Source: Candidatus Fonsibacter lacus
GTDB taxonomy: Bacteria; Actinomycetota; Actinomycetes; Nanopelagicales; Nanopelagicaceae
Assembly: GCA_009921625.1 (NCBI GenBank)
Contig: RFXN01000004.1
Location: 1-34,129, forward strand
Direction: 5' to 3'
DNA: 34,129 nucleotides
Positions 9,292 to 25,772 of this stretch are shown one piece after another (within the stretch, counting starts at the first letter, position 1; every line of letters starts with the position of its first letter). The position numbers were made by a program, and so were the translations under genes. The notes beneath the pieces were generated by a model. It was not told the DNA's origin, searched no databases, and saw nothing but the letters and a program-made list of their open reading frames with translations.

Positions 9292-11040
9292 TCAAATAAC
9301 TTTTAGCATCCTGGTATTACCCAGGGTATTTGGTTTAACTGATTCTAAATCCAGGAATTCAGCAATACCTTCATCGTAAGAGCGAAGAAGTTGCTGATAA
9401 ACATCTGGTGCAACTGGCGCTCCCTCAATTTCGACAAAGCCGTGCTTTGCGAAGAAATCAGTTTCAAAAGTAAGGCAGAACAATCTCTTAACACCAATTT
9501 CGATAGCGCGAGTCACGATACGATCTAAAATCATATGACCTATTCCTTGTTTTCGTAAATTTTCACGAACCGCCATCGTGCGAACTTCGGCAAGGTCCTC
9601 CCAAAGAATATGAAGTGCACCGCAACCAACCACTTCGCCATTGAGCTCCGCGACCGTAAATTCTTGAACATCTTCGTAGAGCGTTACCGTCTCTTTTGAA
9701 AGCAACCTTCGCTGCAACGCATACTCATCAATCATGGCTCTGATAGTTTTAATATCATTAGTCTTCGCCGGTCTTATAATTGGAGTCATTCTGGTTTTAC
9801 CAACGGGACCCATACCCATTCCAGCAGTTGGCGGCATGCCTACCTCTAGAGCGCTCAAGAAATCCTCATCAAGAGCCATCGCCTCTAAATCACCCTTTGC
9901 GCCAAGTAGAGCTTGGGCGACAAGGCGCTCGCGTTGAATCACTGGATCCACAAGTTCCGAATAGCCGGTCGCTAACTCAAAACCATCGACATAAAGATCC
10001 CATTTTTCTACCACACCAGGAATCTCGCGATGGCTACGCACCAGTGGTGAAGTATCAGAAATTTCATCCCATTGACCACCTAAGTCGCTCTCTCGGCCAT
10101 CAAAATGCTTGACAACGGTGCTACCAAAGATGGAGTTTGCAGCTTCCTGCACCAATCCGCGGGTGAGATTTATTCCATCTCGCCAGTCACCATAAGCTTG
10201 GTATGACTCAATCATGGCAAATTCTGGTGAGTGACTTGAATCTGCCCCTTCGTTTCTAAAGTTTCTATTAATTTCAAAGACTCGCTCAATACCACCAACA
10301 ATACAACGTTTGAGATAAAGCTCAGGTGCAATACGTAAAAATAGCTCCATGTCATATGCATTGATATGTGTTTTGAAAGGACGCGCTGCTGCACCGCCGT
10401 GGAGAACTTGCAACATTGGCGTTTCAACTTCAATAAATTCTCGCGCTGCGAACGATGAACGCAGTGAACTCATAACCGCTGGACGAAGACGAGCAATGGT
10501 TCGAGCCTCAGGACGAACAATGAGATCAACGTAGCGTTGTCGCACGCGAGTCTCTTCCGAGAGCGGTTTATGTTCCACGGGTAATGGACGAAGCGCTTTA
10601 GCAGCCATGTGCCAACTTGTTGCTAAAACAGAAAGTTCACCACGTTTTGATGTGATGATTTCCCCGGTCACGCTCACCAGATCACCCAAGTCAACGAAAG
10701 ATTTCCATTGCTCTAAAGTTTCGGCGCCAACTTGATCTAGAGAGAACATCGCTTGTAACTCGGTGCCATCCCCTTCACGTAAAGTCGCAAAGGCTAATTT
10801 TCCAGTATCTCTTTTAAAGATCACCCGACCAGTTACGCTCTCAGTAATACCGCTTTTTACATCGATTTCTAAGTGGCCAAACTTCTCACGAATCGCTTTT
10901 AGTGAAGAGGTGCGCGGGACGGAAACGGGATAAGCCTCATGTCCGCTTTCCACGAGAGAATCGCGCTTTTGTCGACGAACCTGCATCTGTTCAGGAAGAT
11001 CATCGATCTCCGATGCGATATTACCCTCTGATTCCGCCAT
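9292..11040 (-). CDS. fusion ORF: truncated lysyl-tRNA synthetase (about 417 aa) + complete ArgA-type N-acetylglutamate synthase/GNAT (165 aa)
   Basis: LysRS: RQRYVDLIVRPEARTIARLR, FRNEGADSSHSPEFAMIESYQAYGDW, KWDLYVDGFELATGYSEL, GMPPTAGMGMG. From the internal ATG at 9787-9789: MTPIIRPAKTNDIKTIRAMIDEYALQRRLLSKETVTLYEDVQEF...VVGCGALHILWEDLAEVRTMAV...DFFAKHGFVEI...LLRSYDEGIAEFLDLESVKPNTLGNTRML (actinobacterial ArgA family). Confidence 0.88.
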   Translation of the reverse strand: MAESEGNIASEIDDLPEQMQVRRQKRDSLVESGHEAYPVSVPRTSSLKAIREKFGHLEIDVKSGITESVTGRVIFKRDTGKLAFATLREGDGTELQAMFSLDQVGAETLEQWKSFVDLGDLVSVTGEIITSKRGELSVLATSWHMAAKALRPLPVEHKPLSEETRVRQRYVDLIVRPEARTIARLRPAVMSSLRSSFAAREFIEVETPMLQVLHGGAAARPFKTHINAYDMELFLRIAPELYLKRCIVGGIERVFEINRNFRNEGADSSHSPEFAMIESYQAYGDWRDGINLTRGLVQEAANSIFGSTVVKHFDGRESDLGGQWDEISDTSPLVRSHREIPGVVEKWDLYVDGFELATGYSELVDPVIQRERLVAQALLGAKGDLEAMALDEDFLSALEVGMPPTAGMGMGPVGKTRMTPIIRPAKTNDIKTIRAMIDEYALQRRLLSKETVTLYEDVQEFTVAELNGEVVGCGALHILWEDLAEVRTMAVRENLRKQGIGHMILDRIVTRAIEIGVKRLFCLTFETDFFAKHGFVEIEGAPVAPDVYQQLLRSYDEGIAEFLDLESVKPNTLGNTRMLKVI

Positions 11041-19891: not shown

Positions 19892-20741
19892 CTACTCCCG
19901 TGAGAGCGCTAGTCTGCCCGACTCTCGCCGGGCTGTAACGCCGGCGGGCAGGGCAACCGCCCCTTGGCCGTGCCAGTCACTGATGAGGGCATCGACCCAA
20001 TCGAGCTGTTCGGCGGAGATTCGGTTGGCTCCTAACCGAGATATCGCGCGACGTATCACCCGCTTTCGGAGGGCAACAGGTAGTTTTTCCAGAAGCACCA
20101 CCTCAATCTTCGTTGGATCCGGGATGGTGGTGAAAATCTCTTCTGAGAGCAGATCCAGCGCATCCGAATCTTCTCGAAAAATTCGCGCTGATCGAGCGAG
20201 CGCTTCTTTGATACCCGGCCCAATTAAAGATTCCATTAGCGGCAATATCTGTGTGCGAATTTTTACTCGCGTGAAACGCTCATCCTCATTATGAGGATCG
20301 CTCCAATATTCAATTCCTACCTCAACACAGGCGTTGACCACCTCTTCACGAGTGATGGCGAGGAAGGGACGAATATAAAGGCCACTGTGTGTGGCCATAC
20401 CAGCAAGAGATTTAGTTCCTGAACCTTGTGTAAGCCCAAGTAGCACACTTTCTGCAAGATCGTCTTGGTTATGTCCAAGGAAAATCGCACGAGCATCTAA
20501 AGTCTGAGCACAGGAATTAAGTGCTGCATAGCGAGCGCTTCGCGCATCTGCCTCTAAACCATCTTTTTTCATAACTTGTACTGAGACCACGTCTACATTT
20601 GAAATTCCCATCGCCAATAATTTATTTTTAGTCGCGTTGGCAATATTGGACGGCACCACCAGAAACGGCAACAATCACATGATCACCAGGAGTTATTCCG
20701 TGCAGCGCCTGTCTGACCGCAAGGCGAGCTTTTGTGATCAT
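19892..20741 (-). pseudogene. tilS: tRNA(Ile)-lysidine synthase, frameshifted/deleted at the N-terminal P-loop
   Basis: Upstream frame from ATG at 20741: MITKARLAVRQALHGITPGDHVIVAVSGGA|VQYCQRD*. The other frame resumes SNIANATKNKLLAMGISNVDVVSVQVMKKDGLEADARSARYAAL...IFLGHNQDDLAESVLLGLTQGSGTKSLAGM. The D-S of SGGxDS and the following segment are absent. Confidence 0.82.
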
Positions 20742-22290: not shown

Positions 22291-23016
22291 TTATGCCATT
22301 GTTAGACAGGCTGCTGCCACAAGAGCTAGAACTACTCCGATATTTTGAACTAGTTTTAATTTCTCATGAAGCACGTATCGAGCTAACAGCGCTGTTGCTG
22401 CTGGATACAGTGATGCGAGAACCGCATTCAATCGAAGTAGGAAGAAAGCGAAGACAAAGAGAAATCCAAACCATCGAGCAATTGTTGAAGTCCAGATCCC
22501 TTGATTAGTAGGCGCCAATCCTAGGACCGTTAAATACGAACCGATTAAAAAACCACTTGATACACAAATAGCGAGCGTGCTAAGAGATATCCGCTGTGAA
22601 GTATCGCTCTTCTGTTCTTGACTTACGAGGATTACCGAAAGTGCAGCAAGCCCCATGCCGAAAAAACCAATTCCTGATACCTGATCGCCGCGAAGCAGGC
22701 CTGTGATAACTGGGACGAGACCGGCCATCAAAGCGGTGATAGGTGAGACTATTCCCATAGGTCCGCGACTAAGTGCGATATACAGCAATGCAATTGCGGG
22801 AACGCCGAAGAAGGCGGCGAAAAAACCGTAAATAAAAGAATCTTGATTAATCTCACCCGGAATGAGAAAAAAAGCGAAAATTGTGACCGCTATCGCTCCT
22901 GAAAGGTAGGAGATAGGCAAAACCCGAGCAATTTGAGTTTTCCGCGAAGCTAATCCACCTAAAAAATCCGCAACGCCCCATGTTGCACTTGAGATCAGCG
23001 CTAGAAGTGGTCCCAC
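22291..23016 (-). CDS. EamA/DMT-family transporter, apparently lacking an internal C-terminal-half segment
   Basis: VGPLLALISSATWGVADFLGGLASRKTQ ... LASLYPAATALLARYVLHEKLKLVQNIGVVLALVAA. ORF track start (23322) overruns the divergent methyltransferase; GTG at 23016 with AGGAG upstream preferred. FFLLRLN|AVLASLYP junction is abnormally short. Confidence 0.75.
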   Translation of the reverse strand: MGPLLALISSATWGVADFLGGLASRKTQIARVLPISYLSGAIAVTIFAFFLIPGEINQDSFIYGFFAAFFGVPAIALLYIALSRGPMGIVSPITALMAGLVPVITGLLRGDQVSGIGFFGMGLAALSVILVSQEQKSDTSQRISLSTLAICVSSGFLIGSYLTVLGLAPTNQGIWTSTIARWFGFLFVFAFFLLRLNAVLASLYPAATALLARYVLHEKLKLVQNIGVVLALVAAACLTMA

Positions 23017-23042
23017 TAGACTCCTCGTGTTCTCCTGTGTGA

Positions 23043-23059
23043 GCGCACAATACGTGCGC
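23043..23059. promoter_or_regulatory. inverted repeat between divergent EamA and SpoU genes
   Basis: GCGCAC-aatac-GTGCGC, perfect 6-bp arms. Confidence 0.4.
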
Positions 23060-23081
23060 ATGATGTGAAAGCGAAGGACAC

Positions 23082-23738
23082 ATGACAAACGAGCCAGGTG
23101 CGGGGGAATTCTATCCCTTTGTTGGCGTGGGTCCCCATCCAAAACCATGGCCTGTCGGTGAAAAATACGACCAAGAGCTCTTAGCAAATGGCGATCAACG
23201 TAATGTCCTTGATGAATACCGCTATTGGAGCGTTGATGCAATTGTCGCAGATTTAAATAGAAAACGTAATCCACTTCACATTGCTGTTGAAAACTGGAAG
23301 CACGATTTAAATATTGGATCACTGATTAGAACTGCGAATGCATTCAATGTGGCCGGGATTCACATAGTTGGAAAACGCGACTGGAATCGCCGCGGAGCAA
23401 TGGTCACCGATCGCTATATGACTGTGCATCATCACTCTACTGTCGCTGAGTTTGCGGAGTGGGCTAAAAAAGAGAAACTTCCGATAATCGGCATTGACAA
23501 TATTGAAGTAAGCAAACGATTAGAAAATCGGCCACTTCCTAAAAACTGTGTTTTATTTTTTGGTCAAGAAGGTTCTGGAATGTCAGAAGAAGCTGTTTCG
23601 ATTTGCGAAGTTGTGCTTGCCATTGAGCAATATGGTTCAACTCGCTCGATAAATGCCTCTGCCGCTGGCGCTATTGCCATGTATGCCTGGGGCCTACAGC
23701 ATCTCTCACCAAAAAACAGCGATAACGATATTCGTTAA
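23082..23738 (+). CDS. TrmH/SpoU-family RNA methyltransferase
   Basis: NIGSLIRTANAFNVAGIHIVG, FFGQEGSGMSEEAV, IEQYGSTRSINASAAGAIAMYAW. Confidence 0.9.
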   Translation: MTNEPGAGEFYPFVGVGPHPKPWPVGEKYDQELLANGDQRNVLDEYRYWSVDAIVADLNRKRNPLHIAVENWKHDLNIGSLIRTANAFNVAGIHIVGKRDWNRRGAMVTDRYMTVHHHSTVAEFAEWAKKEKLPIIGIDNIEVSKRLENRPLPKNCVLFFGQEGSGMSEEAVSICEVVLAIEQYGSTRSINASAAGAIAMYAWGLQHLSPKNSDNDIR

Positions 23739-24080: not shown

Positions 24081-24991
24081 TACCTTCTCCTTACCACTCT
24101 GACGCGACCCTGAGCAATCGCACTTCCGATAAGCACAATTAAACCGCCTAATGGCTCATTCCAAGTCAACGGCTCACCGAGCAATAGAAATCCAAGGATT
24201 ACTGCGACCAGCGGCGTTATATAAGTGACGGTGCTTGCTAATGAAGGCCCTGCAAGTTCTACATTTCTAAAATTCCAAATGTATGCAATACCAGTCCCCA
24301 GAACTCCAAGCGCAAGAATTGATAAGAGCGCCTCGAGAGAAATTTCATACGAATGAAATCCATTAAGCAGGAAAAATGGAAAGAGGGTTAAAGCAGAAAG
24401 AGATACTTGGGTGGTTGCTAAAATTTCCGGTGAGAGTTTCCTGGGAATGATGTATTTCGACGAGAAAGGGTAAGAGGCTCCGTAACATAAAACTGCCAAC
24501 AATAAGGCAATAATTGCACTAGCGGATGTTTGACCAATAGTTTGACCAACGACTAGTACGATCACAACACCAAAAAATCCAAGAATGATTCCAAAAACCT
24601 TCTCAAAACTTAATCGCTCACTTCGAAAAACGATCATAATCATCAAAATACTCATGATTGGAGTTAGCGCATTCATAATTCCGGCAAGAATTGAGGAAAC
24701 TTGCTCTTGTGCATAAGCAAAAAGAATCCCAGGAAATACATTTAGCAAAAGACCCATCACCCATAGTTGAAGAAATAATAAATAGTCCCTATTAATTCTC
24801 ATCTTTCTACGAAGAAGGACTACCCACAAGGCTAGCGCTCCTAGCGCACATCGAAAAAAAGCAACTCCCACCGGCGTTAGAAAAGTCAGCGACTTTTCAA
24901 TGAAAAGAAAGGAGGCTCCCCAAACAATTCCTAGCGCAAGATATGACGTAATCCAACCTTTACTCCCGCTGACTTCGTTCGCTTTACTCAT
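24080..24991 (-). CDS. EamA/DMT-family transporter
   Basis: 303 aa, ten hydrophobic segments, two EamA repeats (VWGASFLFIEKSL, LGEPLTWNEPLGGLIVLIGSAIAQ). Confidence 0.9.
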   Translation of the reverse strand: MSKANEVSGSKGWITSYLALGIVWGASFLFIEKSLTFLTPVGVAFFRCALGALALWVVLLRRKMRINRDYLLFLQLWVMGLLLNVFPGILFAYAQEQVSSILAGIMNALTPIMSILMIMIVFRSERLSFEKVFGIILGFFGVVIVLVVGQTIGQTSASAIIALLLAVLCYGASYPFSSKYIIPRKLSPEILATTQVSLSALTLFPFFLLNGFHSYEISLEALLSILALGVLGTGIAYIWNFRNVELAGPSLASTVTYITPLVAVILGFLLLGEPLTWNEPLGGLIVLIGSAIAQGRVRVVRRR

Positions 24992-25772
24992 TTTGAAATT
25001 CTTGCTCGTTGCGTGATTGCATTTCCTAAAATCACGATAACGCCTCCGATGGGTTCATTCCATGTTAAGGGTTCATTTAACACAATGACTCCCGCAACTA
25101 CCGCAACAATCGGTGAAACAAAATTTACTGTGGCTGCAACGGAACTGCCGACAAGAGCGACAATTCGGTAATTCCAAGCAAATGCAAAACCAGTTGAGAA
25201 AATACCGATAATTGAAATAGCAAAAATAGGAGCTACTGAGAAATCATACGAATTAAATCCATATAAAATAAATGTGGGCAGTAAAACAAGTGCGGCGATA
25301 GTTACCTGTATGGTGGCAAGAGCCACCGGTGGATATTTTTTAGGAGCAATGTATTTTGCGATGATTGGTGGAACTAAAAAGCTAAAAGTATTCCAAAAAT
25401 TTGCATCGGCTTTACTGGTTCATGTTTAAATAACAATATTGTAAAAAGCACTGCGAACATTGGCGACATGGCATTGATGATGCCGGTCAACGATGAGGTG
25501 ACTTGAGTCTGAGCAAAGGGGACGATGACTACTGGAATGATGTTGGAACAAAGTCCAATTAGAAAAATCCAGCCAAAGACTGAACGATCGCGTGGAATCG
25601 AAATCTTCTGGTAGAACAAGTAACCCCACAGCACCATGGCCCCTAGTAAGTTCCGCACAAACGCGATGCCAAAGGGACTGAAAACGGGGAGTGCAATCTC
25701 GATAAACATGAATGACAAGCCCCAGGTTAGGCTGAGCAAAAGGTAGGGCACCAACCATTTCCTGCTTTTCAA
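24988..25772 (-). pseudogene. EamA/DMT-family transporter, frameshifted by a central deletion
   Basis: N-terminal half ...MQIFGILLAF* (25374..25772); other frame resumes LVPPIIAKYIAPKKYPPVALATIQV... (24988..). The tandem paralogue at 24080..24991 has about 35 extra residues at this place (FGIILGFFGVVIVLVVGQTIGQTSASAIIALLLAVLCYGASYPFSSKYIIPRK). Confidence 0.85.

Follow-up and report, generated by a model that had tools for sequence, protein, structure and literature searches.

The tilS gene in the window, that is, the whole stretch of 34,129 nt analysed here, is broken by a hole of 98 nt, and from the sequence and its comparison with related genomes we conclude that this lesion is almost certainly an artefact of assembly in a fragmented draft genome of the metagenome type. 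The window is contig C190 of this genome, which consists of 266 contigs with a total of 1.35 Mb and is 85.1% complete. The relatives compared are two genomes of the same genus, G001 and G003, the latter a complete chromosome, and in addition a contig of G002. On the whole, lesions of this type recur through the assembly, also in genes that a cell cannot do without, and are found in none of the control comparisons. Between the two outcomes offered by the earlier note on this DNA, an assembly error or a surprising true null, the former is thus strongly favoured, as the holes recur genome-wide in essential genes, and the latter finds no support.

On the minus strand, direct reading of the sequence from the ATG at 20741 gives MITKARLAVRQALHGITPGDHVIVAVSGGA followed by VQYCQRD and a stop codon at 20630-20628, and the remainder of tilS continues in a different frame at ...SNIANATKNKLL. 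The frameshift previously noticed inside the SGGxDS P-loop is therefore real in the assembled sequence, where the motif runs from SGGA into the shifted frame and its DS is absent. Aligned at the DNA level with G001 and G003, the window lacks a single clean block of 98 nt at about 20651, in good agreement with the loss of about 100 nt proposed before. This block takes in the VIDHQLQ strand as well as the DS of SGGxDS; the earlier note had listed the PP-loop D-S and the VDHGLQ-like strand as gone. Across the missing segment, the TilS of G001, which is the closest TilS found (79% identical), reads SGGADSLLLAHCLNLEGAKDSLRISAVVIDHQLQERSG. A scan of GTDB contigs for a same-species genome spanning the site gave other species only, the best at 79% identity. 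The features of the locus are as follows.

20649..20741, minus strand: 5' part of tilS with codons 1-31, the last of them coding for SGGA of the PP-loop; 74% amino acid identity to TilS of the same genus across 31 residues, with pN 0.16 versus pS 0.73.
20628..20741, minus strand: cut-short frame of 37 aa ending in VQYCQRD and a stop, from direct reading of the sequence.
20648..20653, minus strand: tilS junction at which about 98 nt of the relatives are absent, its position ambiguous by a few bases, from the alignment with G001 and G003.
19892..20650, minus strand: 3' fragment of tilS, open and conserved, with the remaining PP-loop domain and the TilS substrate-binding domain (PF01171, PF09179, TIGR02432); 79% amino acid identity to G001, with dN 0.16 and dS 1.3.

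The downstream frame has 260 aa (20674-19892, minus strand) and is open from a TTG at 20674. It matches PF01171 at model positions 60-181 of 182, TIGR02432 (the TilS N-domain model) at 51-189 of 189 and PF09179 (the TilS substrate-binding domain) at 6-66 of 67; since the matches to PF01171 and TIGR02432 begin only at 60 and 51, the P-loop part of TilS is absent. Both fragments are clear and conserved TilS by these models, located in the conserved ftsH-hpt-tilS neighbourhood, and both bear the marks of purifying selection around the hole; the assembled gene differs from an intact TilS in the missing 98 nt with the DS and the strand. The protein is of the short kind, in which the extra C-terminal domain is lacking, and we take it to be type II from its length. 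The junction itself is clean sequence, with neither N nor obvious mis-overlap, and among repeats that might explain a slippage deletion there, only short chance repeats are seen.

The need of the organism for TilS can be judged from its tRNAs and its codons. TilS is conserved across about 98% of the genomes of bacteria and is regarded as essential; neither E. coli nor B. subtilis survives its deletion (PMC12514573). The genome of the window has three CAU tRNAs, namely an initiator, an elongator tRNA-Met adjoining a tRNA-Thr, and a third at C136:6737-6810, which is assigned to tRNA-Ile2(CAU) by reading of the three. The TilS substrate that the earlier note proposed to look for thus seems to be present, and this putative tRNA-Ile2(CAU) matches the corresponding tRNA of G003, in which tilS is intact, at 100% identity. 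A tRNA-Ile(UAU) is found neither among the 31 tRNA matches of the 85%-complete genome nor among 46 distinct tRNAs detected in the G003 sequence analysed. Likewise, a search of the draft genome, complete to 85%, finds no second tilS, no other PP-loop match and no missing piece of tilS elsewhere, so neither of the two rescues considered earlier, a second copy or the UAU tRNA, turns up. In the compared genes, 785 of 6391 Ile codons (12.3%) are AUA; 552 of the 785 stand opposite Ile in G003 and only 13 opposite Met. AUA is neither avoided nor unaligned with Ile, contrary to what is expected of a natural TilS loss. With tRNA-Ile2(CAU) kept, no tRNA-Ile(UAU) found and AUA making up 12% of Ile codons, the organism should therefore need TilS.

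The lesion in tilS is not alone. Alignment of G001 and G003 proteins to the window reveals five holes including that of tilS, ranging from 56 to 198 nt, all in genes that are intact in both relatives. The other four are listed below.

10056..10057, minus strand: lysS hole, 198 nt (66 aa) absent in frame, from comparison with G001 and G003.
9807..9808, minus strand: hole of about 56 nt at the 3' end of lysS, by which class II motif 3 (GMGxDR...) and the stop are lost and the gene is fused to the next one (GNAT), from comparison with G001 and G003.
25376..25377, minus strand: hole of about 94 nt in an EamA-family transporter gene, causing a frameshift, from comparison with relatives.
22418..22419, minus strand: hole of 126 nt (42 aa) in frame in a second EamA-type gene, relative to both relatives.

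The two lysS holes bear on a frame of 582 aa that looks like a fusion of lysS with a GNAT acetyltransferase gene (9292-11040, minus strand), whose parts are separate genes in G001 and G003; by the sequence comparison, this fusion is the product of the hole of 198 nt and that of about 56 nt, and no real fusion protein. The EamA-family gene at 24988-25772 (minus strand) lies in two frames owing to its hole of about 94 nt and is intact in the relatives, and the EamA-type gene at 22291-23322 (minus strand) has 42 aa fewer, in frame near 22418, than in both relatives.

Below we report the survey of such holes in the whole draft genome, covering about 390 kb of readable contigs with 21 short contigs masked. 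It yields approximately 24 holes of 50-198 nt in about 293 kb of aligned coding DNA, a number that may include some natural differences in length, namely a few of the holes that keep the frame in proteins of low conservation, and the rate is about one hole per 10-12 kb of coding DNA. Many of these holes shift the reading frame. The controls are all free of holes: G003 genes compared with 80 kb of G001 and the G002 contig give none where about 5.8 would be expected at the rate of the draft genome, and none is found for G001 genes against G003 or for the genes of the window against G001 and G003. Named after the intact proteins of the relative, the damaged genes include dnaA, eno (enolase), uppS, pcrA, lysS, ilvD, aroH (chorismate mutase) and the citramalate synthase gene. 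Among them, dnaA (L090, G000:C91) has a hole of about 53 nt near 2690, in its C-terminal part, with a frameshift. No second dnaA and no second close lysS is found in the draft genome, where contig C212 has only a distant lysS-like match of 29% identity. Inspection by eye of 24 junction contexts shows neither a common motif nor a k-mer-scale overlap, though an overlap of a few bases is possible with relatives this distant in DNA. In a truly decaying genome, nonsense point mutations would be expected as well, along with small frameshifts. The draft genome has 38 internal stops per 96,107 residues versus 8 per 23,057 in G001, which is no excess, and small frameshifts are rare in the survey alignments; together with the conservation of tilS, this argues that the genome is not decaying otherwise.

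A cell in which dnaA, enolase, lysS, uppS and tilS are all broken could not live, and we therefore conclude that the holes are gaps left unfilled in the assembly or errors of local assembly. The source is probably an actinobacterium of the plankton that is related to strain IMCC26077. In its assembly, short unassembled stretches may have been closed up, leaving a consensus without some 98 bases at the tilS junction and likewise at many other sites; the exact step would be either a joining of scaffold gaps that left their sequence out or local joins that lack support. The joins carry no N and the holes measure about 50-200 nt, which fits such a closing up. In metagenome-assembled genomes, scaffold gaps that were never filled and errors of local assembly are a known source of broken genes, and when unrepaired they put incomplete or incorrect genes in databases (Chen et al., PMC7111523). 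The present case resembles those errors in that short missing segments break genes in a draft genome, and differs in that the gaps here carry no N and the contigs read through them. The organism itself most likely has an intact and ordinary tilS, whose product would make lysidine on tRNA-Ile2(CAU).

Other explanations deserve to be weighed. If TilS were really lost, AUA might be read via another enzyme, by an altered identity of MetRS or IleRS, or by an unseen tRNA-Ile(UAU), and this would agree with the broken frame and with the absence of a second copy among the contigs searched; as the genome is 85% complete, the UAU tRNA could even sit in the missing part. Mycoplasma mobile decodes naturally without TilS by tRNA-Ile(UAU), and the assembled genome resembles it in having no intact tilS, but differs in having retained tRNA-Ile2(CAU), with no tRNA-Ile(UAU) among its 31 tRNA matches. 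Real loss is extremely improbable given that this tRNA is unchanged, that AUA is freely used as Ile, that the remnants of tilS are conserved, that the same lesions hit dnaA, eno, uppS, pcrA and lysS, and that TilS is carried by all same-genus relatives searched (in G004 split over two contigs). For the same matter, the chance is equally minute that a free-living actinobacterium with tRNA-Ile2(CAU) and ordinary AUA use truly lacks TilS, which would imply a novel route of charging or decoding.

A deletion carried by only some members of the population, as in a strain variant or a dying lineage, and taken up by the consensus is also very unlikely, albeit a little less so. The consensus of a draft metagenome can mix strains and a minority variant is conceivable at the tilS site. 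Nevertheless, this explanation requires that about two dozen genes, several of them essential, each suffered a deletion of similar size independently and that the consensus picked all of these deletions, and the usual point nonsense mutations are absent. The slightest chance of all is that programmed frameshifting or a split TilS in two pieces rescues the protein: the downstream frame, open from the TTG, could in principle be translated separately, but part of the ATP-binding PP-loop, together with the strand next to it, is coded by the missing bases, and to restore this is beyond any frameshift.

Assembly artefact being the preferred explanation, claims of gene loss, pseudogenes or gene fusion from this draft genome, such as the lysS-acetyltransferase fusion, are untrustworthy without the reads. 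If it were true, the loss of tilS would challenge the essentiality of lysidine synthesis in bacteria reading AUA with tRNA-Ile2(CAU). As for the location of the damage, the genes hit on L086 are eno, uppS and Ppx/GppA-like ones, while pcrA is hit on L155, and ilvD and the citramalate synthase gene on L187. The spread is uneven, with no hole in the 52-kb contig C1 (L083, L084 and L164; G000:C1) and five in the 18-kb contig C14 (L086).
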